Source of the DNA: Candidatus Zhuqueibacterota bacterium
GTDB taxonomy: Bacteria > Zhuqueibacterota > Zhuqueibacteria > Residuimicrobiales > Oceaniaggregativiventaceae
Direction of reading: 5' to 3'
Length of the DNA stretch: 64,000 nucleotides
Assembly (NCBI GenBank): GCA_014728085.1
Contig: WJMF01000038.1
Coordinates: 1-64,000 of the forward strand
Made by a program: the position numbers and the translations under genes. Below the pieces are notes generated by a model that had not been told where the DNA came from, searched no databases, and worked only from the letters and a program-made list of their open reading frames with translations. This document shows positions 36,258 through 55,513 of the stretch, piece by piece. Every line of letters begins with the position of its first letter. Position 1 is the first letter of the stretch.

Positions 36258-37739
36258 ATGAAAAAAATTCTTCTGGTCAACCCCGAAACCCCTTCCACTT
36301 TTTGGAGTTTCAAGAACGCGATCCAGTTTATCTCCAAAAAAGCATCTGATATCCCTCTTGGGCTTTTAACGGTGGCATCGATGTTACCGCAGTCCTGGGA
36401 AAAAATATTTATTGATTTAAACATTGAAAAATTACATGATAAAGATATTGAATGGGCTGATTATGTTTTTCTCGGCGGTATGAGTATACAGCTTGACTCA
36501 TTTAAAAAGGTAGCAAGACGGTGTAACGGACTGGAAACGCCTGTCATCGCCGGCGGTCCCCTGGTGACCACGGAACATGAAAGGCTGGTCGGCATCGATC
36601 ATCTCGTACTGGGTGAGGCGGAAAGCATCCTGCCAAAACTCGTTGAGGACATTGAACATGACAACGTCAAAGCCGTCTATCAATGCGCTGATTTTCCGCT
36701 TCTCCACACCACACCGGCACCCATGTGGAGCTTGCTGAAGCAAAATAAATATGCCCAGATGAGCATTCAATATTCACGGGGATGCCCGTTCGATTGTGAA
36801 TTTTGCAGCATCGTATTGCTTAACGGCCGTAACCCCCGCACCAAGAGCAAAGCACAGCTGCTGGCGGAACTGCAGTCACTTTACGACTCCGGCTGGCGCG
36901 GAAATGTCTTTATCGTGGATGATAATTTTATCGGTAAAAAGCAAAAACTGAAAAAAGAAGTCCTGCCCGCTCTCATCGACTGGTCGCAACAGCATCAATA
37001 TCCCTTTCAGTTTACCACCGAAGCATCGATCAATCTGGCGGACGATATTGACTTGCTAAAACTCATGGTCAAAGCCGGATTTACACATATCTTTATCGGC
37101 ATCGAAACGCCGAATCATGAGAGTCTGGCCGAATGCGGCAAAGCACAAAATCAGAAACTCGATATGATCGATGCCGTAAAGCTGCTGCAAAAAGAGGGCT
37201 TGAGAGTATCCGGAGGCTTTATCGTCGGATTTGACCACGATCCCCCCTCTATTTTTGAACAACAGATCAGCTTTATTCAGAAAAGCGGTATCGTTACCGC
37301 CATGGTCGGCTTGCTGAATGCGCCCACCGGCACAAAACTGTTTAACCGCCTCAAATCGGAAGACCGCCTGCTCAATCTGATGAGCGGAGATAATATGGAT
37401 GGATCGATCAATTTCATACCCAAAATGAAATATCAGGAGCTCATCAAAGGCTATAAACAAATCGTCACCACCATCTATTCACCAAAAGCCTATTACGAAC
37501 GGGTAAAACTCTTCCTCAAAGAGTATAAAATGCCGGTAAAAATCCCGCTACGCATCAAGCCGGAAGAGCTGCATGCCTTTTTTCGCTCAATCTGGAAACT
37601 GGGTATTTTGGAAAATGGCCGGCGCTATTACTGGAAGCTCGTTTTTTATACGCTCTTTAACCATCCCAAAAAATTCCCTACCGCCATTACCATGGCGATC
37701 TATGGATTCCATTTTCGCAAAGTCATTCAGGGAATCTGA
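36258..37739 (+). CDS. B12-binding-domain radical SAM protein (DUF4070-type)
   Basis: A 493-residue protein. Residues 1-140 form a cobalamin-binding-like Rossmann domain (ILLVNPETPSTFWSFK, VFLGGMSIQL, IAGGPLVTTEHE). The radical SAM domain begins with SRGCPFDCEFCSIV near residue 173 (C-x3-C-x2-C for the 4Fe-4S cluster) and contains FVDDNFIG-like VDDNFIG and FIGIETPN. The C-terminal 130 residues resemble DUF4070. The family includes the hopanoid methylase HpnR, but many members have unknown substrates; methylation or another radical reaction on a lipid-like substrate is possible. Monocistronic. Confidence 0.85.
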   Translation: MKKILLVNPETPSTFWSFKNAIQFISKKASDIPLGLLTVASMLPQSWEKIFIDLNIEKLHDKDIEWADYVFLGGMSIQLDSFKKVARRCNGLETPVIAGGPLVTTEHERLVGIDHLVLGEAESILPKLVEDIEHDNVKAVYQCADFPLLHTTPAPMWSLLKQNKYAQMSIQYSRGCPFDCEFCSIVLLNGRNPRTKSKAQLLAELQSLYDSGWRGNVFIVDDNFIGKKQKLKKEVLPALIDWSQQHQYPFQFTTEASINLADDIDLLKLMVKAGFTHIFIGIETPNHESLAECGKAQNQKLDMIDAVKLLQKEGLRVSGGFIVGFDHDPPSIFEQQISFIQKSGIVTAMVGLLNAPTGTKLFNRLKSEDRLLNLMSGDNMDGSINFIPKMKYQELIKGYKQIVTTIYSPKAYYERVKLFLKEYKMPVKIPLRIKPEELHAFFRSIWKLGILENGRRYYWKLVFYTLFNHPKKFPTAITMAIYGFHFRKVIQGI

Positions 37740-39195: not shown

Positions 39196-39525
39196 CTACT
39201 TTGTCTTTCCGCTGTTTCTGAATGTATAGCGCAAATGGATAATTCGATTATAAATTGTACCGATGATCCAACCGGTAATTGCACCATAGACAAAGCCCCA
39301 GATAAAGCCGATCAGGCTACCGCCCCATGAGACCGAATAACCGAAAAAAAACTGGCTCAACAGTCTCAGATGCGGCCCCACGGTTTCACCACCTTTGATC
39401 AGCAGCCAGGCAGTCATGAGAAAAATAACACCACCGCCGACCAGGCCACAGATGACGGCGAGTATCGTGGCGTGTATATGCGCCACGGTGGATAGAATAA
39501 TTTCATCTTCATCCGTTTTTTTCAT
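39196..39525 (-). CDS. Small membrane protein, homologous to the tail of the FAD oxidoreductase
   Basis: A 109-residue protein with two long membrane helices. The core FLMTAWLLIKGG, then LRLLSQFFFGYSVSWGG and a G-x3-G-x3-G-rich second helix aligns with the C-terminal 85 residues of the neighbouring FAD-dependent oxidoreductase (FMVTLVAWLVHE, LSLLNNYLVGYRVSPFG). The two are therefore stand-alone and fused versions of one membrane module. It ends the minus-strand half of the polymer cluster. Function unknown. Confidence 0.65.
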   Translation of the reverse strand: MKKTDEDEIILSTVAHIHATILAVICGLVGGGVIFLMTAWLLIKGGETVGPHLRLLSQFFFGYSVSWGGSLIGFIWGFVYGAITGWIIGTIYNRIIHLRYTFRNSGKTK

Positions 39526-39543
39526 ATTATTCTCCTGAATGAA

Positions 39544-41343
39544 TTAACTCAGAATATCCTTGTGTTGCAAGGATTCGAAATATTTTTTTGTTCTCTTTGC
39601 GTATAGTTTAATACCCAGATTTCGAAGTCCGGCAAAAATATAGCCCAATACAAATCCCAGGATACCCGTTTCAATACCTCCCAATACCGCACCAAAGGGG
39701 GACACCCGGTAACCGACAAGATAATTGTTCAATAAAGAAAGCGCTGATATCAGTGGCTTTTCATGCACCAGCCAGGCAACCAAGGTGACCATAAAAACAA
39801 GGAATGCAAATACAACAGCAATGGAAATTCCCAAAGCGGGGGCATCGAGATAGGCGAACTCTTGTTTTAAAAAGTCTTCCATCAACCGATCCGCAGAGTC
39901 TTTACGCTCACTCTCTTCCAGATAACTTTTTTCCGTATTGACTTTCCAAATGTTATGGGTAGCCCCATACAAATTACGAGCAGCATATATTCCGGTCAAC
40001 ATAGAGTGATCCTGATTATTGTACCGGTGCAGACCATTGCGTCCGATTGTTTGCAGATTTTCGAAACTTGAAAGATAATTACGAATAATGTCGAGATTAT
40101 CATCGTATTTTGCATCATAAACCGGATAGGCTTTTTCCATTCGCACGAGGGTACCATCTAAAATATCCTCAGGAGCGACCAGGCCGATTTTAACGCATTC
40201 CGACATTCCCAGTTGAATCAATTCAGCGTCGGGTTTGTTCCACAGGGGGTCATCTTTCCAGAGAAAGTATTCCAGTCCCAGTGAAGTCTTTGAAGCGTCC
40301 GGCACCATGTCGGGACTCCAGTTTTTATAATTTTGAACTCTGCCCATCAGTACATCCGCAGAATGAATATAAAGCCAGTTATCCTCAAAAATATGAGGTT
40401 TGTTGATGATTAAAATCACCGTAAAATAGTCGCGATAGCGCAATTCGCTCGCGGCTTTTAACACCTGATCCGAAGGCGGTGGATCGAGCGCAAAAATGAG
40501 ATGCCGCAATGGCATAGAGTTGATGAGGTGAGAAACACAGTGCTCGAAAGTTTCACCACTGTTCGAAACAGACTGAACCCCCCTGATTTTCAGATGCTCA
40601 TGGTAAATTCTGTTGACCCGGTGATCCGGTTCGACGCGGCTGTTGTTTTTCTCGAGCTTTTCCCGGCATCGCTGCCATATCATACCCGGACCGTAGCGCG
40701 GGTAAAAGAATTCCTCGATCAATGAAGTGATAACCTCTCCGCTTTTATCGGTGGAGCGATTGAAAATGGCATTTTTCAACGCTTCGCTCAGTGATAAATT
40801 TTTAATGCGCTGGGCAGCCCAATGTGAAGATAACTGATCGCAGGGAATTCCCCATACCTTTTCCGTATACGTTTTGAAAAAAATTTCGTACAACCTTTTC
40901 CCGAACCGGTTGCTCACCCACTGCTCAAAATTGTCTTCCCGGCGGTGCGGAAATCCTTTGGCAGCCAGATAGCTCGCAAAAATTCTAACGCTTTCCGCGA
41001 TGCCGAGATTATGCAAGGCGTTGCGATAGGTCAGAGGATAGTCAAAAAAACGGCCGTTATAAAAAATACGCGATTTTCGCTGCCGGGTTAAAAATTCCTC
41101 TCCCAAAATTTCCCGCCATATGTTCTGAATATAGGGAACTTTGGTAAAAAAACGATGGCCGCCGATATCAAATCGAAATCCATCGTATTCCACTGTTCGC
41201 GAAATACCGCCGACGATATGATCGCTTTCAAGAATAACACACGTGTTACCATGCTTTGACAATTCATAGGCGCAGGTGAGGCCTGCGGGACCGGCACCGA
41301 TGATTACAATATTTTGTTTACCTTCGATGGCATCTTCTCCCAA
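39544..41343 (-). CDS. FAD/NAD(P)-dependent oxidoreductase with C-terminal membrane module
   Basis: A 599-residue protein. The N-terminus has the dinucleotide-binding GAGPAGLTCAYELSKHG, then VGGISRTVEYDGFRFDIGGH as in amine-oxidase/UDP-galactopyranose-mutase-like enzymes. A glutamine/Arg-rich region and TGIYAARNLYG near residue 455 close the FAD site. From about 505 the chain has two membrane helices that match the neighbouring 109-residue protein. Such oxidoreductases occur in surface-polysaccharide loci and may isomerise or oxidise a nucleotide- or lipid-linked sugar. No ATG is available; a TTG immediately after the stop of the glycosyltransferase is the best start, so initiation is probably coupled. 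Confidence 0.8.
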   Translation of the reverse strand: MGEDAIEGKQNIVIIGAGPAGLTCAYELSKHGNTCVILESDHIVGGISRTVEYDGFRFDIGGHRFFTKVPYIQNIWREILGEEFLTRQRKSRIFYNGRFFDYPLTYRNALHNLGIAESVRIFASYLAAKGFPHRREDNFEQWVSNRFGKRLYEIFFKTYTEKVWGIPCDQLSSHWAAQRIKNLSLSEALKNAIFNRSTDKSGEVITSLIEEFFYPRYGPGMIWQRCREKLEKNNSRVEPDHRVNRIYHEHLKIRGVQSVSNSGETFEHCVSHLINSMPLRHLIFALDPPPSDQVLKAASELRYRDYFTVILIINKPHIFEDNWLYIHSADVLMGRVQNYKNWSPDMVPDASKTSLGLEYFLWKDDPLWNKPDAELIQLGMSECVKIGLVAPEDILDGTLVRMEKAYPVYDAKYDDNLDIIRNYLSSFENLQTIGRNGLHRYNNQDHSMLTGIYAARNLYGATHNIWKVNTEKSYLEESERKDSADRLMEDFLKQEFAYLDAPALGISIAVVFAFLVFMVTLVAWLVHEKPLISALSLLNNYLVGYRVSPFGAVLGGIETGILGFVLGYIFAGLRNLGIKLYAKRTKKYFESLQHKDILS

Positions 41344-42354
41344 TTAATGTCGTCTCAGGATATGATACTGCACATTGCCGATAAGAAAGGATATTCCGCT
41401 GTAGAGATAATATAACAGGTGCAGGAAAAGGGCTTTTATCGAAAAAACCATACCGCGTTTATTAAGAAAAAAACGATACAGCTTGAGATTGAACAGGATA
41501 ACAGCTAAAATGACGAAAAAGGCATAGAACAGTCCACAGAGGGGCGGAAGAAAAAAGAGCAGAACGAGTGAGAACACCAGAGAGACACAAAGCCGTTGCC
41601 CTTTGCTGACATTGAGATCATTTTGAAACCGGCGGTTCTGTAACATGAGAACCGTCCATGGTATACCCCTCTGAAACACATCGGTTTTTATCAGTTGAAT
41701 CAAAGTCCACTTTTTCAGGTGTTTTACCTGTAACGCCTTGACCAGACGAATGGAATACCCCGCTTTTGTCAAACGATATCCGAGTTCGATATCCTCTATC
41801 ATCGGTTTTCGGTATTTTGTATTAAAACCATCCATGTTGAGAAAAACTTCGCGCCTGACGGCACCACACCCGGCCCAAAAGGTATGTGCCTCTTCACGGG
41901 CTGTCTGGTGGGTAAAGTGATGATACAGATTTTTAAATTGGCTGACCATACCATTGTGCGCGGGTTCATCGTCGTAAGATCCAAAGACGGCATCAACATT
42001 ATCGCGTTGAAACGCCTGATAAACTTTTTCCAGCGTATCCTGATGGCACAGCACATCGGCATCTATGAAAAAGAGAATCCTGCCCCCGGCTTTACGCACG
42101 CCATGGTTTCGGGCGGCAGCAGGACCGGAGTTGCTGATCTGAATCAATTTGACATCATGACAACGGGCCACAGCAGCGGAATCATCCGTCGACCCGTCGT
42201 CGATGACGATACATTCAAAATCGTCAAACGCCGACAAGAACAAATGGTTCAAACAGCGATCGAGATTACGTGCGTCATTATAAACCGGAATAATCACAGA
42301 GATAGCGGCAACGGAATCTTTATCGCTCATCATATGCTGTTCTTTGTTATTCAA
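41344..42354 (-). CDS. Family 2 glycosyltransferase, membrane-anchored
   Basis: A 336-residue glycosyltransferase with the GT-A core ISVIIPVYNDARNLDRCL, the acidic motif FIDADV (D-x-D equivalent) and the acceptor block IEDIELGYRLTKAG. Two or three C-terminal helices (LVFSLVLLFFLPPL and following) anchor it in the inner membrane. It should add a sugar to a lipid-linked acceptor in the polymer pathway. It lies 21 bases after the GNAT-type gene and abuts the FAD oxidoreductase gene. Confidence 0.9.
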   Translation of the reverse strand: MNNKEQHMMSDKDSVAAISVIIPVYNDARNLDRCLNHLFLSAFDDFECIVIDDGSTDDSAAVARCHDVKLIQISNSGPAAARNHGVRKAGGRILFFIDADVLCHQDTLEKVYQAFQRDNVDAVFGSYDDEPAHNGMVSQFKNLYHHFTHQTAREEAHTFWAGCGAVRREVFLNMDGFNTKYRKPMIEDIELGYRLTKAGYSIRLVKALQVKHLKKWTLIQLIKTDVFQRGIPWTVLMLQNRRFQNDLNVSKGQRLCVSLVFSLVLLFFLPPLCGLFYAFFVILAVILFNLKLYRFFLNKRGMVFSIKALFLHLLYYLYSGISFLIGNVQYHILRRH

Positions 42355-42375
42355 ACCTTCTCCAAAAAGAGAACC

Positions 42376-43329
42376 TTATAATAATTCGTTTAATGTCAAA
42401 AAGCGACGATGCCGCCATATCAATAACGGATGCAACGCTTTCGGAACCGCACAATCTTCCGGCAGTAAAAGCGTCCAGCAGGTATGCGGCCAGGGGTCAC
42501 GACAAGGCTGAGCACCCCATTTTTTTTTATGGTTATAGACGCCATCGTTCACAAAAGGCCTGCTACGTAAAAGATCGAGCACGGTAAAGTCATTCTCTTG
42601 AGCCCATTTGTCCAGTAAATAATATCCCGCCGAAAGCGCACCGCGATGCAAATGTCTTTTGAAATCCCCTGCCATACCCAGAGCCAGTATTGTAAGTTGA
42701 GCGGCATTGCGCACGCAAAAAATCGCTGCCACCCAGACACCGGATGTTTCTACCTTGAAAAGAAGTCCTTTTCCCTGCTGCAAAAGATTTTGCAGGCACG
42801 CTTTTGTTCTCACGTGACTCAGATTGCCATATCGCCAGTAGATGTAGGGCAAATAATAATTCTCGTAAAAAATATCGACTTGCTCCGGCTCCCGACTGCA
42901 TGTGAATGTATACCCATACTTTCTGGCCTTGCGGCCATAATTATCTTCAATGGACCTGCGCCTGGCGCGATAATGTTCGCCGCCGAGTTCAACTTTTTGA
43001 CGTATCCAGGGATAAGTGATCCATTGTGAACGGCAAAGACCTTTTAAAAAACGGTTGATCTCAATAATGGTGATACCGTCATAACGGCAATATCTTTTCA
43101 GTTGCCAGGGCGCGATGGTAGCTTTCCTCTCAAAATGATGATCTTTAAACACAGTGTTTCTCAGATAGTCCAGACTCTCCCCCTCTCCGATATATCTGAC
43201 CCTGGTCTTTTGCTCATCATGAGTCCAGCTAAACACCTTCAGACGCAGCGTTCGGGGCAGCAGGGCAAATCGCTTGAAAATACTCATCACTGCCAGGTGG
43301 TGGTTTTGAAAAGGTTCAGAGACATTCAT
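42376..43329 (-). CDS. GNAT-type (FemAB/BioF2-like) acyl or aminoacyl transferase
   Basis: A 317-residue protein of the GNAT_acetyltransf_6 type. The middle part has HYRARRRSIEDNYGRKARKYG, a helical Arg/Lys-rich block, then VWVAAIFCVRNAAQLTILALG and LLDKWAQENDFTVLDL, matching the second GNAT lobe of FemAB-like proteins. Relatives in polysaccharide loci transfer acyl groups or aminoacyl groups from tRNA. Its start overlaps the radical SAM stop (ATGA), so it is coupled to that protein. Donor unknown. Confidence 0.75.
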   Translation of the reverse strand: MNVSEPFQNHHLAVMSIFKRFALLPRTLRLKVFSWTHDEQKTRVRYIGEGESLDYLRNTVFKDHHFERKATIAPWQLKRYCRYDGITIIEINRFLKGLCRSQWITYPWIRQKVELGGEHYRARRRSIEDNYGRKARKYGYTFTCSREPEQVDIFYENYYLPYIYWRYGNLSHVRTKACLQNLLQQGKGLLFKVETSGVWVAAIFCVRNAAQLTILALGMAGDFKRHLHRGALSAGYYLLDKWAQENDFTVLDLLRSRPFVNDGVYNHKKKWGAQPCRDPWPHTCWTLLLPEDCAVPKALHPLLIWRHRRFLTLNELL

Positions 43330-44423
43330 GGAGACCAGTCATCCCATTTACCTTTTTGGCAACTCTTTTCCTTCATCATTTCAGCCCAACATCCCCCCTT
43401 GCAGCTATTCACAAGAGCACAGTTTTTACAATCGGATAAAAAGGGTTCGCTGCGGCGAATGGCTTGAAAACCATCTCTCCAGATTTGCGAAAACGGCTTT
43501 TGGCGGATATTTCCCTCTGTATATCTGCGGTCATAGATTTGCTGACAGGCGAGCACATCTCCGTTGGCCATAATGGCACACCGCGTCAGGCCGGCGCCGC
43601 AAAAGGGCGGTTTACCAAAAGGTTTGTCTGCCAGCAGTTTTAAATAATAGTGTGATTCACCGAGATCGATATCCAGTTCCCGGCGATGCTGTTGAATGAA
43701 CTCGATCAGGTATGCCTGCTGTTCGGCATTGAGGTAAAAACGGGAATCATCCTCTGCCCGGCCGACGTTTGTAATGGGACAGAGATGCCAGGCATTGGCC
43801 CCGGATTGTTTGACGACAGGTAATAATTCAGGTAAAGCATTCAGGCTTTTGCCATACACAGCCGTGTTGATCATCCGAACCGGAGCAACAGCGGTGAACA
43901 ACTCGAGCGCTTTCAGGGCTTTGGAAAAAGCTCGTTCATTTCCCCGTATTTTATTGTGAAAGGGCTCCGGTCCATCCAGACTGGTAAAATATAAAAAATA
44001 GTTAAAAGCTTTTATGTCACTCCACAGCTCTTCTACATGATAGCCATTGGTTACCAGTCCAATTTTCAGAGATCTGGAATTTGCATAATCCATCAATTCG
44101 ACGATATCCGGCCGGGTGAGTGGTTCGCCACCGGAAAAAAGCAGGCGTTTTACGCCCATTTGTGCCAAATCATCGATGAGAGATTTTGCTTCTGATGTAT
44201 CCAGTTCATTGGCCTCCGGTTGTCCGGATGAGGATTCACAAAAAGGACACTTCATATTGCAGCGATTGGTGACCAGCCACTGGACAAACGTATAGGGTAC
44301 AAGCCATCCCATTCTATTCATAAAGAGTGCTGTATTCTTTTTCAGGCGAGCAGCGCGTTTGAAATAATAGGGATAAATGAGTGGTATTTTTTCCAGCCAC
44401 CGGTCTAAAGCATCGATAATCAT
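43326..44423 (-). CDS. Radical SAM/SPASM protein
   Basis: A 365-residue protein. The radical SAM cluster motif is TNRCNMKCPFC near residue 57 with SGGEPL 50 residues later. The C-terminal SPASM region has CGAGLTRCAIMANGDVLACQ and CKNCALVNSCKGGCW, enough for one or two auxiliary 4Fe-4S clusters. Such enzymes often modify peptides or sugars. ATG at 44423 is preferred (CAGGAAATCG upstream, 14 bases after the Mur-ligase-like stop). Overlaps the GNAT-type gene by four bases. Confidence 0.88.
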   Translation of the reverse strand: MIIDALDRWLEKIPLIYPYYFKRAARLKKNTALFMNRMGWLVPYTFVQWLVTNRCNMKCPFCESSSGQPEANELDTSEAKSLIDDLAQMGVKRLLFSGGEPLTRPDIVELMDYANSRSLKIGLVTNGYHVEELWSDIKAFNYFLYFTSLDGPEPFHNKIRGNERAFSKALKALELFTAVAPVRMINTAVYGKSLNALPELLPVVKQSGANAWHLCPITNVGRAEDDSRFYLNAEQQAYLIEFIQQHRRELDIDLGESHYYLKLLADKPFGKPPFCGAGLTRCAIMANGDVLACQQIYDRRYTEGNIRQKPFSQIWRDGFQAIRRSEPFLSDCKNCALVNSCKGGCWAEMMKEKSCQKGKWDDWSP

Positions 44424-44436
44424 AACGATTTCCTGT

Positions 44437-45732
44437 TTAGATAACGACTTTACTTTTCCATCCTGTTTCCAGCATGGGGCAGGTATCACAGCGATGCGGC
44501 CGGGCATCACAGGATTTTATATCGCATTTGACGTCTCGCCCCATCAAAGAGAGGGAGATACGTTCGAGCCTCTGGGTATTACGCCCTTTCATAAAAACAA
44601 CATCACCATTTTGAAGGTGGTTTTTGAGAAAAAGGATCGCCCCCATGATGGAAGTACCGGCATCAAAAATCTGTTCTCTGGCCAATCCGGCTGCTGTGGC
44701 TCCGGCAGCATAACGTTGATAATTCACGCCAACGATGACAATTTGATGGAAAATAGCTGCCATTTTGCTGCCGATATCACGATAGATTGGTCCCTGACTT
44801 CCCGGCGGTTCCGACACCTCGCCCATGACAACGATCTTTCGTTCTCCCCCCATCTTTTTAAGAACTTTAAACGCTCTCAGAATAGTTTCCAGAGAGGATT
44901 TAAACTCATCCCTGATCAATACAATATTATTTTTTAATTCAACCATTTCCATCCTGCCCGGTGTCGGATCCAGAGTGCCCAGTCTTTTGATCGCACTCTG
45001 ATGAGGGATGCCCAGTACATGAGCAACAGCAAGGGCCGAAAGGTTGGGATAAACCATATGTCTGCCTAAAAGCCGGGATTTTACCGGAACGTCCAATTCG
45101 TCCAGTAAACAGCGGAATTGCATTCCTTTCACAGAGGCCGCATAAACCGCAACAGCGCGAACATCATTATGCGGATGAAAGCCAAAAGTCACCACCTGTG
45201 CACGAGTATGTTGACGCATCCAGCGAACATTGGAATCATCGCCGTTTAAAAAGACGGTTGCCCGGGAAGAGAGCTGACGGATCATCTGACTTTTTTCAGC
45301 ACGAGTCTGTTCTAAATTACCCAGCGAACGATGGTGCTCACTACCTATCGACGTCACCACAACCAATTGCGGTTTCACCAATCCGGCATATTTTGACATC
45401 TGTCCTTTGCCGTCAATGCCGATCTCGATTGCTTCATACTTTTCTCCCGGACGTATGCGCAAAACAGCCGCAGCGACATAACTCCAGCAGTTCCCCTGAT
45501 AAAATCTTGACAGCGGTCTCCGGAGCACCGTCTTTATAGCGCGAAGAGTGGTGGTCTTGCCGTAAGAACCGATTACGACGATGATCTTGACTTTTCTCAA
45601 GAAGAGACGACGATAGAGAAAAGCAATCATCCACAGAACCGGCCAGGAGCGCTGGAATATCCCATGAAAAAATTGTATTCTTCCGACAGGTGTTTTCCAC
45701 AAATAATATAAATCTGAAATCGTATAACGCAT
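44437..45732 (-). CDS. Mur-ligase-family ATP-dependent amide ligase-like protein with N-terminal membrane helix
   Basis: A 431-residue protein. After a hydrophobic segment (WPVLWMIAFLYRRLFL) comes the Mur P-loop VVIGSYGKTTT, then TSIGSEHHRSLGNLEQTRAEK, LNGDDSNVRWM and the C-terminal domain opening DPTPGRMEMVE. These match MurF/MurE central and C-terminal domains, which join an amino acid or peptide to a carboxylate using ATP. The usual MurF D-x-Y-N-A-N-P motif is replaced by RDEFKSSLE and there is no N-terminal UDP-sugar domain, so the acceptor is probably not a muramyl peptide. The tail holds four cysteines (CDIKSC, CDTC) that may bind metal. Start chosen at 45732 with a weak AGG site. Confidence 0.78.
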   Translation of the reverse strand: MRYTISDLYYLWKTPVGRIQFFHGIFQRSWPVLWMIAFLYRRLFLRKVKIIVVIGSYGKTTTLRAIKTVLRRPLSRFYQGNCWSYVAAAVLRIRPGEKYEAIEIGIDGKGQMSKYAGLVKPQLVVVTSIGSEHHRSLGNLEQTRAEKSQMIRQLSSRATVFLNGDDSNVRWMRQHTRAQVVTFGFHPHNDVRAVAVYAASVKGMQFRCLLDELDVPVKSRLLGRHMVYPNLSALAVAHVLGIPHQSAIKRLGTLDPTPGRMEMVELKNNIVLIRDEFKSSLETILRAFKVLKKMGGERKIVVMGEVSEPPGSQGPIYRDIGSKMAAIFHQIVIVGVNYQRYAAGATAAGLAREQIFDAGTSIMGAILFLKNHLQNGDVVFMKGRNTQRLERISLSLMGRDVKCDIKSCDARPHRCDTCPMLETGWKSKVVI

Positions 45733-45749
45733 ATCGGCCTGTATAATTT

Positions 45750-46538
45750 TCAATGTTTTACAGCTTTTACAACCACATAATATCCGGTATAATCGCGGGT
45801 TGGCAATTTTTCCAGTTTTTCGAAATGACGCAACAATTTTAAAAACCACGTATGTCCCATATTAAACCGGCATATTAATCTGGCCAGCCAGATAAACAGG
45901 ATTCTGGGAGCATGCAAAAGGGTCGTATGGTTGCGAATTTTAAAATCATGGCGTTCGAGTAGACGTACCAGTTGTTTACGGTTCAGCGTCTTACCCATAA
46001 AATATGGAATAAAACCCAGTTTGCGGACAATTTTAAAAGGCAGCAGGTTGCGCAAAAAAATCAGGGGATTCACCGGATTATCGAGAGTGATGATCAACAT
46101 TCCACCCGATTTTAAACAGAGTGCCAATTGTTGCAGGGCCTGATGCAACTCCCTCTTGCTGGAAAAATGATCCAGAGTCGAGTTGGAAAAAACCATATCT
46201 ATGCTTTGCTCTCTGAAACCCGGGGCAAGGGCATCCGTAACCACAGCCATACTCCAGTCAGGTCGTTGTTTTTGGATATTCTCTATCCCCTCTCTTGCCA
46301 CGGGCCATGACAGATCCATTGCTACGGCATACTCGCTGTTTTTGATAAATGCCGGAAGCAATCCTTCTTCACTGATAGCTTCGTCGTAGAGATCAGACTT
46401 TAGCAAGATTTGAAACTTTTTACCTTTGGTATATTCTCGAAAATACGCAAGATAGAGCCACTGCATGTGTTTTCGCCATAATGATTCGTATTCGCTCTGA
46501 TGCTTAACCAGACTTTGTTGCCAGTGTTCTTCTTTCAT
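45750..46538 (-). CDS. Class I SAM-dependent methyltransferase
   Basis: A 262-residue protein. The Rossmann core begins YAVAMDLSWPVA (an unusual motif I lacking the G-x-G-x-G) and continues with VVTDALAPGFREQSIDMVFSNSTLDHF and LKSGGMLIITLDNP, which are motifs II-III of class I methyltransferases. It probably methylates a sugar or a peptide of the surface polymer. The ATG at 46538 is preferred to an upstream GTG, though neither has a strong ribosome site. First gene of the minus-strand half of the cluster, divergent from the flippase gene. Confidence 0.8.
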   Translation of the reverse strand: MKEEHWQQSLVKHQSEYESLWRKHMQWLYLAYFREYTKGKKFQILLKSDLYDEAISEEGLLPAFIKNSEYAVAMDLSWPVAREGIENIQKQRPDWSMAVVTDALAPGFREQSIDMVFSNSTLDHFSSKRELHQALQQLALCLKSGGMLIITLDNPVNPLIFLRNLLPFKIVRKLGFIPYFMGKTLNRKQLVRLLERHDFKIRNHTTLLHAPRILFIWLARLICRFNMGHTWFLKLLRHFEKLEKLPTRDYTGYYVVVKAVKH

Positions 46539-46730
46539 TATTGCAACCGGACGGGATTTGGAACGCAGTTCATTCGATTCACCCCTCACAACTTGAGAAA
46601 AACAAACCGAAACAGAATTAAATCAGCCTAAGATACAAATTATTGTTTATAAATAGTAAAAAAATATTTAGATTTAGCGGTAAAACCATAATATTGGCGA
46701 TTGTGGTGCATGCACAATAAATCGCCGTGC

Positions 46731-48227
46731 ATGAAGAATACGGAATTATCAGTGGTTGAACAGAGAAAATACGCTTTTTGGGGTGCCCTGGCTTCACTTG
46801 CAGTGAACACAATCGTACCGTTTGCAGGTTTTATCACCTCGGTCTACCTTATCCGCGTGCTCGGAGCTGATCAGTATGGTCTTTATGCACTGGTCACCAT
46901 CGTAATCATATGGACGGAAACAGCTATTGCTGCCATGACCACTCCGGCAACGATAAAACTCATATCCGAACACGATTCCTTTGAACGCACCGGTTCACTG
47001 GCTTTTCAAATTCATCTGGGCCTGGCACTTGTTTCAACCCTGGTCATAAATCTTATCGCTCCCCGGCTTGCCGACTTTTTGCAGGAAGCAATGGTTACAC
47101 TGTTGCTGCGGCTCTTTTCAATTGAAGTTTTCCTTTTTTGCCTTTCCCATGTGTATTATACCGCCCTGACGGGGCTGGAAAAATATCATCGCCGCGCCGC
47201 CGTGCGAGCAGTACGCTGGATTTCCCGGGTCATTCTCATCGTCATTTTCGTAGAAGCGGGGTGGGCAATATGGGGCGCTATTCTCGGAAATATTACCTCG
47301 GTGCTGCTGGAACTGATCAGCGGACGCATCAATATTAAAATTCCTCTAAAATTGAAAGCAACCCATTTACCGATAAAACCCTATTTTATCTGGAGCATGC
47401 CGGCTTTTCTCTTTGATATTTCTCATGAAATCGGCTATAAACTCGATCTTTTGGTTCTCAAATCCGCAGGTGCTTCTCTACAGCAGGCCAGTTACTACGC
47501 CGCGGCTCAAAATCTGGCTTATTTTCCAAATTACATCGTCGGTGCCACCTGGCTCTTTTTTTTCTCCACATTGTTGAGATTCATAAAAAAAGGAGAGAAA
47601 AAAAAGGCCGACTCGCTTGTCACCGCCATATACAAAATTTGGCTTGTACTCCTCCCCGTCTGTGCAATCATATCAGCCAACGCAGAAGATATCTGTATGA
47701 TGGTCTATGGTGCAGCATTTCGTAGCAGCGGAACGTTTTTATCCATTCTGGTCTTTAATTCGGTATTCATTATACTGTTGAAATTCTCTGCGGCGATCTT
47801 TATGGCGCATAACCGCCCTTGGTGGGCGGGGCTGTCTCTGATGCCGCTATTGCCGCTTTTATTTATCGCGATTTCAATACTCGTTCCCCGTTACGGGCCC
47901 CTGGCGGCAGCATGGGCAACATTTGCCGCTTTTGCAATTGCATCCACCGTAAATGCTTGTGGTCTTATAAAACGGCTGCAAATAAAAATTCCGTGCAAAC
48001 CTTTTGTTTTGAATTTGATGCTGGCGATTTGTGCTTATTGGCTCATGATCCACATAAAACCGAGAGGATGGTACGTACTGGTAGAAATATCTGTTGTTTT
48101 GTTATTAATTATTGGTTTTTATGTGAAAAGTGGTATATTGGATAAAAACACTGCCCTCTTTTTGCAAAATCAGTTTAGACAATTACGCAGCTTTCGATCG
48201 AAAAGCAAGACAGATCGATTCGATTGA
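46731..48227 (+). CDS. Polysaccharide flippase (Wzx/MATE-like)
   Basis: A 498-residue membrane protein with about fourteen helices. FITSVYLIRVLGADQYGLYALV is the conserved opening of oligosaccharide flippases of the polysaccharide-transport family; the remaining part keeps the paired 12-14 helix pattern (e.g. YYAAAQNLAYFPNYIVGA). It moves a lipid-linked oligosaccharide across the inner membrane. ATG at 46731 is preferred (after a short leader); an upstream frame has no support. First gene of the plus-strand half of the cluster. Confidence 0.88.
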   Translation: MKNTELSVVEQRKYAFWGALASLAVNTIVPFAGFITSVYLIRVLGADQYGLYALVTIVIIWTETAIAAMTTPATIKLISEHDSFERTGSLAFQIHLGLALVSTLVINLIAPRLADFLQEAMVTLLLRLFSIEVFLFCLSHVYYTALTGLEKYHRRAAVRAVRWISRVILIVIFVEAGWAIWGAILGNITSVLLELISGRINIKIPLKLKATHLPIKPYFIWSMPAFLFDISHEIGYKLDLLVLKSAGASLQQASYYAAAQNLAYFPNYIVGATWLFFFSTLLRFIKKGEKKKADSLVTAIYKIWLVLLPVCAIISANAEDICMMVYGAAFRSSGTFLSILVFNSVFIILLKFSAAIFMAHNRPWWAGLSLMPLLPLLFIAISILVPRYGPLAAAWATFAAFAIASTVNACGLIKRLQIKIPCKPFVLNLMLAICAYWLMIHIKPRGWYVLVEISVVLLLIIGFYVKSGILDKNTALFLQNQFRQLRSFRSKSKTDRFD

Positions 48228-48301
48228 AATCAGAAATGCCATCCAGGACAGGATTCAGCCAGTGCATCCAGTAGGAAAATGTTCAAACATCAAGGATAGA
48301 A

Positions 48302-49384
48302 ATGCAAGCGCCTTACAGCAAAATAAAACTCTTCTCAGGCCTCCTGCACGGAAAAAAAGCCTTTGTGGGGCCCTACTGGCTTACCATTTGCATCTCATCA
48401 TTTTGCAACCTCTCTTGTATCAATTGTTTTTATCATTCTCCCTCCGTCCGATCAAAGGGTAATCGTCCAAAACAGTTTATAGATCCTCAACCCCTGTTCG
48501 ATTTGTGCCAAAGCGCAGCTACTATGGGTACACAGGAAGTCATGATATCCGGTGCCGGAGAACCCCTCATGCACCCCAAACTCGATTCGATTCTATCAGC
48601 CACCCATATCGCAGGATTGAAAACCACCCTCTTTACCAATGGCACGCTCATTAATGATAAATTGATCGATCTGTTGTTTAAATACAATACTAATCGCATT
48701 CGTATAAGCTTGTGGGCAAAATCCATCCAGGAGTATAAAAAGAACTACCCGGGAACGGATCCGGGTATGTTTACTCAAACGCTAAAAAATATAGAGCTCA
48801 TACAGGGACGCAAACAAAAGGAGGATCGGCATCTTCCCATTGTACAGCTGCACCAGCCTCTCAACCGCCATAATATCGAAAACCTGGACCAGGTAGAATC
48901 CTTTATTCGATCGACCGGGATCGACCGCGTCTCTTTTTCACCGTTAAAAATAATCGATGACGATTTAGAGTCTTATTATCTTTCCGAAACTCAAAAATCG
49001 GGATTGATCGCCGAGTTAAAAAAGCTCGCCGGCAGGCTTGAAAAAACCGGTATCGGTCATAATATTCCGGAGACGCTCACGCGCTACCGGGTCGGAAAAG
49101 ATGTCTGTAATGCCTTACCCTGTTACATCGGATTTATTCACGCTTGTATATCGGAAGATCTCTCGGTGATGCCCTGCCAGGGAGCAAAAACGCCGATTGG
49201 TCATTTGAGAAAGGAGACATTTACAGAAATTTGGAACAGTAAAATCCTTGCCGAGTTCCGGCAACAGACGAAAACCTGTGCAGGCATGAAAAAAATAATC
49301 GTCAAAAATCGCTGTAATTATTGTTGTCACACATATCATAATTATAAAATCAATCGATTAATGAAATTTTTTCCGGCCAGATGA
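48302..49384 (+). CDS. Radical SAM protein with SPASM-like C-terminus
   Basis: A 360-residue protein. SSFCNLSCINCFYH near residue 34 supplies the three radical SAM cysteines; SGAGEPLMHP follows and FTNGTLIND is the next conserved strand. In the C-terminal third, CYIGFIHACISEDLSVMPC and NRCNYCC give cysteines for an auxiliary cluster. It begins about 75 bases after the flippase. It is different in sequence from the two neighbouring radical SAM proteins, so three separate reactions or substrates are likely. ATG has a weak AAGGAT upstream. Confidence 0.85.
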   Translation: MQAPYSKIKLFSGLLHGKKAFVGPYWLTICISSFCNLSCINCFYHSPSVRSKGNRPKQFIDPQPLFDLCQSAATMGTQEVMISGAGEPLMHPKLDSILSATHIAGLKTTLFTNGTLINDKLIDLLFKYNTNRIRISLWAKSIQEYKKNYPGTDPGMFTQTLKNIELIQGRKQKEDRHLPIVQLHQPLNRHNIENLDQVESFIRSTGIDRVSFSPLKIIDDDLESYYLSETQKSGLIAELKKLAGRLEKTGIGHNIPETLTRYRVGKDVCNALPCYIGFIHACISEDLSVMPCQGAKTPIGHLRKETFTEIWNSKILAEFRQQTKTCAGMKKIIVKNRCNYCCHTYHNYKINRLMKFFPAR

Positions 49385-49437
49385 ATTAATAAACAGTAAA
49401 AATAGCTCTACCTGTCAATAAAAACCGGGTTCGTTTT

Positions 49438-50610
49438 TTGTTCACTCTAAAACATATTAAAATCGGTCTGGAAAAATCGTTTCTGGCCATAAAATCGCTC
49501 CTGCATCGCAAGGTGACAATATACTCCGATGGTATTCCTTTTACCTTTAAAAACGTACCGTTTCACAAGCTCCTGAATTGGCTGCGCCTGGAAACCGGCA
49601 TTGCGCTGAAACGAAAAAAGGTATGGGGATTGCCGACACACAGTCAGATAGAACCCACCAACCTCTGTAACCTGCGCTGCGCCCTCTGCCCGGTTACCGA
49701 CGGATTTGAGCGGCCCACAGGAAAGATGTCTTTAAACACCTTTACATCCTTTATTGATCAGGTCGGTGACTATCTCTTTATCATTTTATTATGGGATTGG
49801 GGTGAGCCTTTTCTCAATCCAGACGTCTATAAGATGATCGAGTATGCAGTGAAAAAAGATATTGCCGTGATCTCCAGCACCAACGGCCATCCCTTTGCCA
49901 ATGAACGGGAAGCTGAAAAACTGGTAAAAAGCGGTCTGAGCAGTCTTATTTTTGCCGTAGACGGAACCACCCAGGAGAGCTACGAGCGCTACCGAAAAGG
50001 AGGCAATCTTGAAACCGTAATGCGAGGCATCGAAAATCTGGTCGCAATAAAGAAAAGGTTATCGTGCGATAAACCCTTTATCAACTTGCGCTTTATCGTC
50101 ATGCATGATAATGAACATGAAATACCAGCGGTTATTGAAATGGGACGTAAACTGGGGGTAGATGCCGTTAGTCTGAAAACGCTGAATCCTCACGGTGATA
50201 TCATTAATGATCACGAATTGGGTAATGTCTATTTGCCTGAAAATCCTCACTTTCGAAGATTCATTTACGAATCCAACAAAGAGAAAAGAATTAAACTCAA
50301 AACCAATCCCTGTAAAGCCATGTGGAACTGTCCGATCCTCCATTTTAACGGTACTGTTTCCGTTTGTACCTTCGATCCCAATGACCGTCGGGTAATGGGC
50401 AATATTCACGAGACGAAATTCGAAAAAATCTGGAAAAACAGACAATACAGGCAACAGCGAAATCAGTTTCGCAGCGATTACACACAGCTGAAATCCTGTG
50501 ACTGTTGTACAAACGCCTTTAAAGGCGGATTGTTGAGCGAGGAAACCATCTCAGAGGTTTATTTTATAAACGGCAAAACACATCCCGGGTTGATATGCGG
50601 GGACGTGTAA
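49438..50610 (+). CDS. Radical SAM/SPASM-like protein, TTG start
   Basis: A 390-residue protein. The cluster motif is EPTNLCNLRCALCPVTDG near residue 73, followed by LWDWGEPFLNP (the GGEP-equivalent) and AVDGTTQESYERYR. C-terminal cysteines in CPILHFNGTVSVC and SCDCC support a SPASM/twitch cluster. The first 60 residues are basic with a hydrophobic patch, unlike the neighbouring enzymes. No ATG or GTG is available before the conserved core; a TTG at 49438 is the best start. Downstream gene overlaps its 3' end. Confidence 0.85.
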   Translation: MFTLKHIKIGLEKSFLAIKSLLHRKVTIYSDGIPFTFKNVPFHKLLNWLRLETGIALKRKKVWGLPTHSQIEPTNLCNLRCALCPVTDGFERPTGKMSLNTFTSFIDQVGDYLFIILLWDWGEPFLNPDVYKMIEYAVKKDIAVISSTNGHPFANEREAEKLVKSGLSSLIFAVDGTTQESYERYRKGGNLETVMRGIENLVAIKKRLSCDKPFINLRFIVMHDNEHEIPAVIEMGRKLGVDAVSLKTLNPHGDIINDHELGNVYLPENPHFRRFIYESNKEKRIKLKTNPCKAMWNCPILHFNGTVSVCTFDPNDRRVMGNIHETKFEKIWKNRQYRQQRNQFRSDYTQLKSCDCCTNAFKGGLLSEETISEVYFINGKTHPGLICGDV

Positions 50611-51504
50611 AAATTACCGTCATTATCAGCACCTACAGAGCGGTTGACACTGGGACAATGCCTTGAATCTCTCCAGGCGCAAAAAACCGACTCTTCCTTT
50701 GAAATTCTGGTCATCGACAGCTCCGATGACCTTACCGGTGATCGGATCAAAGAGCGTTTTCCGCATGTGCGACTGTTCCACTTTGACGAGCGAATGTACT
50801 GCGGCGAAGCGCGTAATTATGGAATAACAAAGGCAAGAGGTGATATTATCGCATTTATAGACGCGGACTGCATTGCCTCTAAAAGCTGGATCGATGCTAT
50901 TTCCAGGTCGCATCAGGGAAACTATGACGCTATCGGCGGCACAATCGCAAACCAGCAACCCAGCACATCGCAAGGATGGGCATCATATTTCTGTGAATTC
51001 AGTCAGTGGATGCCGGGGCGGAGAAAACAAACCATGTCCGATATTGCCGCCGCCAATATCTCCTATAAAAAATCGTGTTTGCAGACAATCGGACCCTATA
51101 TTACCGATACCTATTGCTCCGATACCCATTTTCACTGGCGCATGCATGATTACGGCCTTAAACTGCTGTTCGATCCGGCCATACGTATAGAACATCGATC
51201 TCTTCAAGACCTGAATACCCTGTTGCGGCATGAATTTTCTCATGGCCGCAATTTCGGCCGTGTCCGTCTGTCAAAGCAGGATTTTACCGGCTTTCGGCGC
51301 CTTTTGCTTATCGTTTTCTGGTTTCTCATAGCTCTGAAAAAAATCCTTCAAATCCGGCTCGCTATATATCGTTTCCCGCTTTATAAAAAATACTTTTATC
51401 GCTCCCTCCCCTTTATTATCCTGGCCTGTCTCGGTTGGGCTTTTGGAGAATGTGTCGGTTATTGCCATCAAAGGAAAAAGTTGCCAAAACAATGGAAGTG
51501 TTGA
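50595..51504 (+). pseudogene. Family 2 glycosyltransferase with a frameshift near its start
   Basis: The ATG at 50595 (overlapping the radical SAM stop) opens RVKITVIISTYRA, the first GT-A strand. That frame ends at a TGA; the next frame, from about 50644, resumes exactly where expected with LGQCLESLQ, then FIDADCIASKSW and the C-terminal helices. One extra base around 50640-50644 (the GCGG run) explains the break. Either the gene is recently inactivated, the base is an assembly error, or frameshifting restores it. A restored protein would be about 300 residues. Confidence 0.8.
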
Positions 51505-51520
51505 TACAGGAGAAAACAAA

Positions 51521-52576
51521 ATGAAAACACTGGATATCGGCTTTATCGGATGCGGCGGCGTCTTTAACAAGCGTCATTATCCCACACTGAAACGTCTTCC
51601 CCGGTACCGTATCGTTGCCTGCTGCGATACGAACAGGATAAAGCTCGATAAGCTTGAAAGAGACTATGGCATCAAATCAACCTTTACCGATTATCGCGAC
51701 ATGTTGCAAAAAGTACCCATGGACATTGCTGCGGTTTCTAGTCCGGTAACCACGCATACACAAATCGCCATGGACATCCTCGATGCCGGACTGCATCTTT
51801 TTCTCGAAAAACCCGCAACCTTTACCATAGAAGAATGCGATCGCCTTATCGAAAAAGCAAAATCATCTCCGGGCAAATTGATCATAGGCTATAATAAACG
51901 CTATATGCCCAATATACGAAAGGCCAAACAAGCTTTGGAGCGTGGTGAACTCGGTCAAATTGAAGCGGTACAATTTCTATTTTCCACCGGCCACCGGGTT
52001 GCAGAGTTGCCAGATTGGCGCAAAGAAAGAGCACTCGGAGGAGGAAGCTTTATCGAGGAGAGCTGTCACATCCTCGACTTTTGGAACTGGTATTCGGATA
52101 AACCGTTCAACCGGGTTTGCAGTGCAACAAGCAGGCTGGGCGGCTGTGATGATAATCCGGTTGCCTTTATGGCGGAAAATCAGGACGGTGCTCTGTTTCA
52201 GGCTCTGGTATCCGATACCCTTCCTGACCAGAATCGCTTTACCATCCTGGGAAAAGATAAAGTAATGAGGCTGTACACGCATCAATTTGACGGTTTTGAG
52301 ATACAACCCCGGGGTGTTTATGACGGAGATTTGAAACAGCGGCTGCAAAATGGCGTAAAATTTATCCGCTACCTGCCACAAATCGGGACATTATGGAAAG
52401 TGGGCGGCGTTTATCACCTTTCATATTATTATATGTGGAAAAATTTCCATGAGGCGATAACAAACAATGTCCCGGTTCTCAACAGCCTCGAGGAGACCCG
52501 CAATGTCCAGATTCTGATAAAAGCTCTGGTCGACTCTGCGGATCAAAACAAATGGATAGAAATAAACCGGTACTAG
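51521..52576 (+). CDS. Gfo/Idh/MocA-family oxidoreductase
   Basis: A 351-residue NAD(P)-dependent sugar dehydrogenase. The Rossmann domain starts DIGFIGCGGVFNKRHYPTL and contains the consensus EKPATFTIEECD (E-K-P) near residue 95. The C-terminal domain has GGGSFIEESCHILDF, the place of the substrate-binding His and Asp. AGGAG precedes ATG 51521, 17 bases after the glycosyltransferase stop. It likely makes a modified nucleotide or free sugar for the polymer cluster and overlaps the convergent Tat-type relative by four bases at a CTAG. Confidence 0.88.
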   Translation: MKTLDIGFIGCGGVFNKRHYPTLKRLPRYRIVACCDTNRIKLDKLERDYGIKSTFTDYRDMLQKVPMDIAAVSSPVTTHTQIAMDILDAGLHLFLEKPATFTIEECDRLIEKAKSSPGKLIIGYNKRYMPNIRKAKQALERGELGQIEAVQFLFSTGHRVAELPDWRKERALGGGSFIEESCHILDFWNWYSDKPFNRVCSATSRLGGCDDNPVAFMAENQDGALFQALVSDTLPDQNRFTILGKDKVMRLYTHQFDGFEIQPRGVYDGDLKQRLQNGVKFIRYLPQIGTLWKVGGVYHLSYYYMWKNFHEAITNNVPVLNSLEETRNVQILIKALVDSADQNKWIEINRY

Positions 52577-54181: not shown

Positions 54182-54352
54182 TGTATATAAAAAAAGTGTG
54201 CTGATAGTGGCTAACCAGCTGTAGTTAAGCAACTTTATCCATCAAAATACGTGTCGAATCTGTGACAACCCTGTCATATGCCCTACATATTGGTTAAAAT
54301 TGGCTATATCACGAATTTACTGCAATTGATAATCTACAATTGGAGGCTTAAA

Positions 54353-55513
54353 ATGAAAGCATATCAAATTTTTTCAATTATTTTGGTGCTGATGGTATTC
54401 AACAGTGTCCTGGCTCAGTTGGAAGTTAAAAACAACAGCGGAACCACGGTTATGACTGTTGATGCAAACGGTAAGCTTACAGCAGAAACCCTAAAGCTGA
54501 ATGGCAACAGTCCTGCAACCGGGAAGGTATTGTACATGGACGACAACAGCGGCAATGTGGTGTTATCGGAACAGCCATCAACCGGTGAATTCTTGAAATG
54601 GAACGGCAGCCAAACAGGATGGGTTACCGATGTCCCCCCCGCCTTTTGGAACGGTACGGTAAACACCAGTTCGGTTATTCAGCGAGGCGGTGATGTAAAA
54701 ATCGGCGGTTCGGGCACAACGATGATCGGAAAACTGGATCTTCCGGAATCGCAATCAAAAAAAACCATACGAACGGTTGGCAACAAAAATCTCAGCCACA
54801 GAACAAATTGCTGGATAATTAATAATAACAATGATGATATCTCCCTTGGCAACTTTGGCCTTATGTCGCAAGTCAAAGAACCGGAGTCATCAATCGGTTA
54901 TTTTAACGGTGCTATAGCCGGTAGAGTTGAATACGGGGGCAATATCCTGGCCCAAGGTGAAGTCGGAAAAGTACAGATGGTAAAAAGTTCTGATGAGAAA
55001 GCTCATGGCTGGCTTTCCGCTGTTATGGGAACTATAAATGCGAGTAATGCGCAACCCTGGATGGATGATCAGCCCGGCGGCGGTGCTGCTGCTGCAGTCA
55101 GAGGGTATGTGGTGGGAGGCAGCGATCCCCATGTTTATGCAGGTGTTTTTCAAGGCGGAACAACGATTATTGAGGAAATGGCTTCGTCTGGCGGAGATTA
55201 TGCCGAATGGATCGAAAAAGAGGAAGCAACAAAAGCGGGAGATTTGATCGGCATTAATCTCGACACCGGTAAATCGCGAAAATACAGAGAAGGTGACCTT
55301 TTTGTGGGTATTCATTCCGAAAATCCAGCCGTTATCGGAAATCGTCTGAAAAACGATATGCAAGATACACACTGTCTGGTTGCACTTGTCGGTCAGGTCA
55401 ACATCGACCCGTCCCAAGTAACCATCCGCAACCGAGTCGTCAGAACCAAAGATGATAAAATGGTAGGCGTGTTATTGAACAATGACAAAATCCTTCTCAA
55501 ACAGCATCTGTAG
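54353..55513 (+). CDS. Secreted protein with Peptidase_G2-like C-terminal domain
   Basis: A 386-residue protein with a signal peptide ending near VLAQ. Its mature start is a paralogous module shared with the protein at 29815. The region from about 280 on has SGGDYAEWIEKEE, GDLIGINLDTGKSRK, GDLFVGIHSENPAVIGN and a closing beta strand, the pattern of phage-type IMC/Peptidase_G2 domains (neck appendage and tailspike autoproteases) and related bacterial surface proteins. Autoproteolysis is not shown by sequence alone. ATG 54353 follows TGGAGG. Long 5' leader and sigma-54-type promoter as for its paralogue. Confidence 0.72.
   Translation: MKAYQIFSIILVLMVFNSVLAQLEVKNNSGTTVMTVDANGKLTAETLKLNGNSPATGKVLYMDDNSGNVVLSEQPSTGEFLKWNGSQTGWVTDVPPAFWNGTVNTSSVIQRGGDVKIGGSGTTMIGKLDLPESQSKKTIRTVGNKNLSHRTNCWIINNNNDDISLGNFGLMSQVKEPESSIGYFNGAIAGRVEYGGNILAQGEVGKVQMVKSSDEKAHGWLSAVMGTINASNAQPWMDDQPGGGAAAAVRGYVVGGSDPHVYAGVFQGGTTIIEEMASSGGDYAEWIEKEEATKAGDLIGINLDTGKSRKYREGDLFVGIHSENPAVIGNRLKNDMQDTHCLVALVGQVNIDPSQVTIRNRVVRTKDDKMVGVLLNNDKILLKQHL

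Follow-up and report, generated by a model that had tools for sequence, protein, structure and literature searches.

The Mur- and Fem-type ligation of amides is a known kind of chemistry, and so are exopolysaccharide (EPS) clusters that carry AsnB, CapK and FemAB. The Mur ligase MurT has a truncated N-terminus without the domain that binds uridine diphosphate (UDP), contains a zinc ribbon with four cysteines (Cys4) and uses lipid II as substrate (PMC6113224), whose peptide is lengthened by Fem enzymes ahead of flipping by the MOP family (PMC2922099). Here we describe a gene cluster at positions 39196-52576 of a 64,000-nucleotide stretch of DNA from a Candidatus Zhuqueibacterota bacterium, uncultured and of KSB1 type (the window; contig WJMF01000038.1 of assembly GCA_014728085.1), in which a Mur ligase with a Cys4 tail is encoded together with a methyltransferase (MT), a GNAT protein, three radical S-adenosylmethionine (SAM) enzymes and genes for a glycan. 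The cluster consists of two joined modules, of which the ligase module, module A, recurs across many phyla and looks like a real pathway without prior characterization. An amide or peptide-like group is most likely placed on an exported lipid-linked glycan or carrier, a reading that we prefer, although we give it somewhat less than an even chance of being correct.

Results

All genes listed in the original prediction, which had been made from the DNA letters, are present as open frames at 39196-52576, and their grouping is not due to chance. The order MT, Mur ligase, rSAM1 and GNAT, in which module A is transcribed in the window, recurs in two other genomes, G001 and G008 (G000 is the genome of the window, other G and L numbers denote the genomes and loci compared, and nearly all relatives are metagenome bins). 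Likewise, rSAM2, rSAM3 and the glycosyltransferase GT2b of the glycan module, module B, are found together in G078, G015 and G008. The proposed check for co-occurrence was thus carried out, and module genes were found elsewhere in conserved order. Both modules stand together in the window and in G008. The idea of one composite unit was not borne out, since in G001 the ligase module has no detected glycosyltransferase or flippase gene with it, and in G078 the glycan module lacks the ligase. Nor do the three radical SAM enzymes form one set: rSAM1 goes with the Mur ligase, and rSAM2 and rSAM3 go with the glycan genes.

The Mur ligase (44437..45732, minus strand; Mur_ligase_M 1.8e-21, Mur_ligase_C 3.3e-8), predicted as a Mur-ligase-like protein, turned out to have a genuine MurF-type ligase fold with the catalytic residues retained. 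Its AlphaFold 2 model, with a predicted local distance difference test (pLDDT) score of 91.8, has MurF as the best Foldseek match (3.8e-28), and the P-loop (G-x-x-G-K) as well as the catalytic Glu, His and Lys are invariant in the 21 aligned members. The N-terminal UDP-binding domain (MurF domain 1) is absent: alignments with PDB structures start at MurF residue ~92-106, and in the model residues 1-44 fold into three helices, with the MurF match running from domain 2 onward. The helices are hydrophobic and have a net positive charge, which would allow contact with a membrane, short of proving it. Near the C-terminus, four cysteines (C403, C408, C415 and C418; C-x4-C-x(4-9)-C-x2-C) are invariant in 21/21 aligned members. 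The protein scores 162.6 bits with the NCBIfam model of MurF, versus a cutoff of 288.6 bits; canonical Mur homologues are present elsewhere in G000, and the subfamily has no curated model in Pfam or NCBIfam. The ligase belongs to an undescribed MurF-derived subfamily.

A scan of a genome collection revealed ~40 close relatives of this ligase in at least ten phyla. They were found in Betaproteobacteria, Verrucomicrobiota, Planctomycetota, Myxococcota and Thermodesulfobacteriota, and also in Nitrospirota, Nitrospinota, Acidobacteriota, Gemmatimonadota and Actinomycetota. Clustering of the neighbours and a Pfam census of 109 neighbour proteins, the counts of which are descriptive, identified the partners that recur at the Mur loci across phyla, namely AsnB, PaaK and AMP-ligases, a FemX-like GNAT, the MT of module A, a small GNAT and BKACE. 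Inside clades the family is rare; among 399 genomes of a Burkholderiales-type order, two further genomes contain it besides the query's own, and a new locus in this order repeats MT-GNAT-AsnB-Mur. In several loci (L032/L044, L051, L068 and L073), two to four Cys4-tail ligases are arranged in tandem. The three ligases linked to rSAM1 form one group in the tree, with a support of 87/95 that lies below the tree's starred threshold. A Wzx gene is found beside the ligase gene in L042 and within the L041 locus. A cultured species, Gemmobacter aquarius, carries a Cys4-tail Mur ligase (HYN69_RS18080, L160:13890-15215) on plasmid NZ_CP028919.1, in a cluster with GT25, GT4, pyruvyl transferase and formyltransferase genes.

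Within the phylum, module A has the order MT-AsnB-Mur-rSAM1-GNAT in G001 and rSAM3-GT2b-MT-Mur-rSAM1-GNAT in G008. The radical SAM/SPASM protein rSAM1 (43326..44423, minus strand; Radical_SAM 2e-23, SPASM 3e-9) has orthologues of 53% and 47% identity at the same position of the module, and the cysteines of its CxxxCxxC core and of its seven-Cys SPASM domain are invariant. It is present in 3 of the 82 genomes of the phylum (E < 1e-55), and the Cys4-tail ligase in 3 of the 63 genomes of the class (E < 1e-45); these are the same three genomes. Outside the phylum, a distant rSAM1-GNAT pair was found in one Bryobacteraceae genome, with no rSAM1 in 256 other genomes of that member's order and none on the plasmids searched. 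AsnB is absent from the cluster in the window, and G000 has a copy that is 67% identical to the AsnB of the G001 cassette, on another contig and among unrelated neighbours. The best AsnB proteins of G002 and G003 (sister genomes without the Mur ligase), G004, G006, G007 and G008 are 34-41% identical to the cassette copy and, because the genomes tested hold only such copies, the protein of G000 appears to be cassette-specific; that it is a mere housekeeping enzyme was rejected on the values of the first five of these genomes. The class I SAM methyltransferase (45750..46589, minus strand; Methyltransf_11 5.8e-8), which shares the family motif L-K-(T/S)-D-(L/M)-(F/Y)-(D/E)-E-A in a cross-phylum alignment, occurs in six genomes of the phylum: three have the Mur ligase, G022 has it in a FAD-MT-GT2a group, and G039 and G045 have it in MT-PaaK-GNAT groups. 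The parts of the modules recombine, yet they are drawn from one repertoire.

The GNAT protein (42376..43329, minus strand) is a candidate aminoacyltransferase with a FemX-like double-GNAT fold, which makes the aminoacyl transfer proposed for a FemAB-like GNAT plausible, and its family is conserved beside Cys4-tail ligases in ten loci. Its relationship is based on the fold, as sequence E-values are poor (Acetyltransf_6 0.00064, below the cutoff). The nearest folds to its AlphaFold 2 model (pLDDT 84) are the aminoacyl-tRNA-dependent peptide synthases Sbb17/Sba18 (9wqx, 9wqy) and FemX, followed by MprF domains, and the top Foldseek matches have E-values of 1e-9 to 1e-8. The motif K268xxWG is invariant, and in a weak alignment K268 lines up with the lysine of FKLGFGG in Sba18; a lysine is critical in DhpH (K329), and FemX has one assigned to its active site (K305) (PMC12945691). 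In another genome (G550, L184:8702-10729, minus strand), a distant Cys4-tail Mur ligase continues at its C-terminus into a fused peptidyl-tRNA hydrolase domain (Pfam 2.6e-42), and the exosortase A (XrtA) cluster around it includes a FemAB-type GNAT as well. This fusion points to tRNA-linked substrates, although, with one genome, it could be an accident.

In module B, the flavin adenine dinucleotide (FAD) enzyme (39544..41343, minus strand) belongs to the NCBIfam family PRK07208 (UDP-galactopyranose mutase/amine oxidase-like; 674.6 bits versus a cutoff of 389) and has a C-terminal membrane tail; its relatives adjoin GT2a or MT in G078, G022, L038 and L039. The glycosyltransferase GT2a (41344..42354, minus strand; Glycos_transf_2 1.2e-34) has a hydrophobic C-terminus and relatives together with the FAD enzyme or MT in G078, G022 and L039. 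On the plus strand, the Wzx/MOP-type flippase (46701..48227; Polysacc_synt_3 1.5e-15), with relatives in G078 and L041, is followed by rSAM2 (48302..49384) and rSAM3 (49438..50610), in both of which, as in rSAM1, Pfam detects radical SAM and SPASM domains. Four of the 82 genomes of the phylum have rSAM2, with rSAM3 on the same contig in 4/4, and rSAM3 adjoins GT2b in G008, G015 and G078. In GT2b (50611..51504, plus strand; Glycos_transf_2 4.3e-20, from profile position 12), the first strand, KITVIISTYR, lies in one frame and the remainder in the next; this apparent frameshift near 50630 is either an error of the metagenome-assembled genome or a real lesion. The Gfo/Idh/MocA sugar dehydrogenase (51521..52576, plus strand; GFO_IDH_MocA 7e-22) weakly matches models of inositol and UDP-GlcNAc 3-dehydrogenases. 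In G078, which belongs to another family, module B stands without module A in the order FAD, GT2, SPASM, GT2b-like, rSAM2, Wzx, GT2b, rSAM2-like and GT2a, with an rSAM3 match within the same stretch, and G015 has a partial module B of rSAM2, rSAM3 and GT2b. In G008, three further radical SAM genes lie in a row upstream of rSAM2, beside a small GNAT-like gene (L159:7247-12605, G008:C132).

The start codons of the window genes were reassigned by comparison with homologues. This places the start of the Mur ligase at 45732 (431 amino acids) and that of rSAM1 at 44423, with an alternative upstream start at 44510, and results in gaps of 13-17 bp; GNAT and rSAM1 overlap by 4 bp. The probable start of MT is an ATG 17 codons into its open reading frame (ORF), and the ORF of the Gfo/Idh/MocA enzyme opens at 51443, with an ATG at 51521. 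Two tight transcription units had been predicted, and the close packing of the minus-strand genes stands; a long overlap of MT and the Mur ligase does not exist once the starts are corrected. A simple scan of the divergent intergenic region between the two units (46590..46700) found no sigma-70-like site. Directly downstream of the FAD gene lies a gene for a protein of 109 amino acids (39196..39525, minus strand) without a Pfam family, which by eye is of membrane type. Near the cluster but not within it, at 36258-37739 of the window, a fourth radical SAM gene encodes a B12-binding protein with DUF4070. At 54278-55513, a secreted-looking protein stands alone and weakly matches the Peptidase_G2/IMC autoproteolytic domain. 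This fold type is known from phage tail proteins.

Discussion

We infer from these results that module B (the FAD mutase-like enzyme, GT2a, GT2b, Wzx, rSAM2 and rSAM3) would make and export a lipid-linked glycan, the sugars of which are possibly radically modified, and that the Gfo/Idh/MocA enzyme is probably part of the same pathway. Module A, together with the AsnB encoded elsewhere in G000, would build an amide or peptide-like group: the Mur ligase would use ATP to phosphorylate a carboxylate and then couple it to an amine, the GNAT would donate an aminoacyl group from aminoacyl-tRNA, AsnB would amidate a carboxylate, MT would methylate, and rSAM1 would introduce a radical modification. The chemistry of module A would depend on ATP and probably on aminoacyl-tRNA. 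Because the UDP-sugar-binding domain has been lost and hydrophobic cationic helices are found at the N-terminus instead, the acceptor of the Mur ligase is probably bound to the membrane or in some other way not a UDP compound, as for MurT and lipid II. The amide group would most likely be put on the glycan or lipid carrier before export, and the groups that the ligase module adds to the glycan product are probably modified amino acids. The link to the glycan is drawn from the MT loci of the window, G022, L038 and L039, where the FAD enzyme and/or GT2a are encoded next to MT, from the Wzx genes at L042 and L041, and from the cluster on the Gemmobacter plasmid. Of the earlier proposal of an aminoacylated or peptidylated surface glycan or lipid, the amide chemistry is plausible, and the term surface polymer fits module B; for module A it is an inference.

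Several observations weigh against the attachment to a glycan or carrier. The cluster contains no Wzy, no Wzz and no initiating phosphoglycosyltransferase. Module A of G001 stands alone, and neither a glycosyltransferase nor a flippase was detected in the surrounding ~7 kb. At L051:5878-13003, four Cys4-tail Mur ligases are interleaved with PaaK-type genes and no glycan genes were seen; AsnB and an acyl-CoA ligase are encoded near these ligases, which makes L051 a candidate stand-alone amide pathway. G008 is without a close AsnB (best copy 35%), and the template modelling (TM) scores of the GNAT matches in Foldseek are modest, at ~0.45. A more far-reaching version, which we regard as rather unlikely, would be a system that has spread horizontally among phyla and assembles peptide-like chains on a carrier lipid or glycan other than peptidoglycan. 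It would follow the logic of lipid II maturation, with a Mur-type ligase, an amidotransferase, a FemX-type tRNA-dependent transferase and a MOP flippase, and would add a radical SAM step; the Cys4-tail Mur ligase would be the hallmark of the system, and aminoacyl- or peptidyl-tRNA would take part in its chemistry.

Module A might instead be a self-contained small-molecule pathway, for a natural product or cofactor made by amide ligases rather than by a non-ribosomal peptide synthetase (NRPS), with its glycan neighbours present by chance or on shared mobile segments. This is a serious, albeit doubtful, possibility. The stand-alone operon of G001, which has arsenic-resistance-type genes on one side (translations judged by eye), keeps a free small molecule a strong rival, and the same is suggested by the tandem ligases, by the acyl-CoA and PaaK-type ligases, BKACE, arginine-deiminase-type and racemase-like genes across such loci, by the sporadic distribution with rarity within each clade, and by FemX-type GNATs that work in antibiotic pathways (PMC12945691). 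Against this pathway stands the repeated association with glycan genes, such as those for the FAD mutase-like enzyme, GT2 or a flippase, in the window, G008, L038, L039, L041, L042, G022 and the Gemmobacter plasmid.

The presence of GT2, Wzx and Gfo/Idh/MocA genes would also be typical of an ordinary, strain-variable O-antigen or EPS locus, in which the Mur-like protein and AsnB would do no more than join amino acids or ammonia to uronic acids as amides and the GNAT would be a plain N-acyltransferase, and EPS clusters of Rubrivivax contain CapK, the asparagine synthase wbpS and a gene related to FemAB (PMC3684757). Such a locus is decidedly unlikely, as none of the described loci found includes the Cys4-tail ligase subfamily, its fixed partners and rSAM1, and in G001 the module stands without glycan genes. 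The expectation that the gene set differs from standard loci held: no matching O-antigen or EPS locus was found in the open-access literature, subscription papers being outside this coverage. A cluster for a ribosomally synthesized and post-translationally modified peptide (RiPP), with the SPASM enzymes acting on a ribosomal precursor, is already disfavoured and highly improbable. While the closest resemblance of rSAM1 is to peptide maturases (161 bits with the mycofactocin maturase model, below the cutoff), the gaps of module A leave no space for a precursor gene, the Pfam scans report no leader-binding (RRE) domain, and none of the small ORFs inspected next to rSAM1 or downstream of the FAD gene is conserved in relatives.

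A ligase subfamily that is defined by sequence and has fixed partners offers a handle on an uncharacterized amide-building pathway in at least ten phyla. A peptidylated glycan as product would mean that Mur- and Fem-type chemistry is in use beyond peptidoglycan and pseudomurein; a free metabolite would represent a new class of NRPS-independent natural products with a radical SAM step. Either outcome would correct the generic labels 'Mur ligase family protein', 'GNAT' and 'radical SAM'.

Of the known systems, the window ligase has MurF as its best fold match and shares with it the middle and C-terminal domains, the P-loop and the active-site Glu, His and Lys, but it lacks the UDP-binding domain 1, has N-terminal helices instead and a Cys4 C-tail, and contains (D/E)FKSSLET where MurF has a DDSYNAN-type motif. 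With MurT/GatD it shares a Mur ligase without a UDP-binding domain, a Cys4 site and, near many loci of its type, an amidotransferase partner; however, its Cys4 site is at the C-terminus (403-418 of 431) rather than in the middle domain, and the partner is of the AsnB type instead of GatD. Membership in MurT was rejected on the position of the cysteines, on the MurT model (19 bits versus 800) and on Pfam, which detects Mur_ligase_C only and no MurT C-terminal domain. The GNAT resembles FemABX, Sbb17-Sba18 and PacB-type enzymes in its modelled double-GNAT fold, with the invariant lysine of K-x-x-(W/F)-G lining up with Sba18 in the weak alignment, and differs from them in scoring below the Pfam cutoff, in a distinct N-terminal half and in neighbourhoods of the module A type. 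AsnB, an AMP-ligase or CapK and a FemAB-like GNAT are shared with exosortase A (XrtA/PEP-CTERM) loci and CapK/WbpS/FemAB EPS loci, but the cassette AsnB scores 472 versus 817 for the XrtA amidotransferase model. The window was rejected as an XrtA cluster on the lack of TIGR03098-03101 type matches in the first ten cluster proteins and the Gfo/Idh/MocA enzyme, such genes being present at L184. Among the ORFs of at least 120 amino acids at 39196-52576, Wzx alone was found, without Wzy or an initiating glycosyltransferase; with Wzx/Wzy O-antigen and capsule clusters the gene cluster shares the Wzx flippase, GT2 enzymes and a sugar dehydrogenase, whereas it adds three SPASM enzymes and an amide-ligase module.

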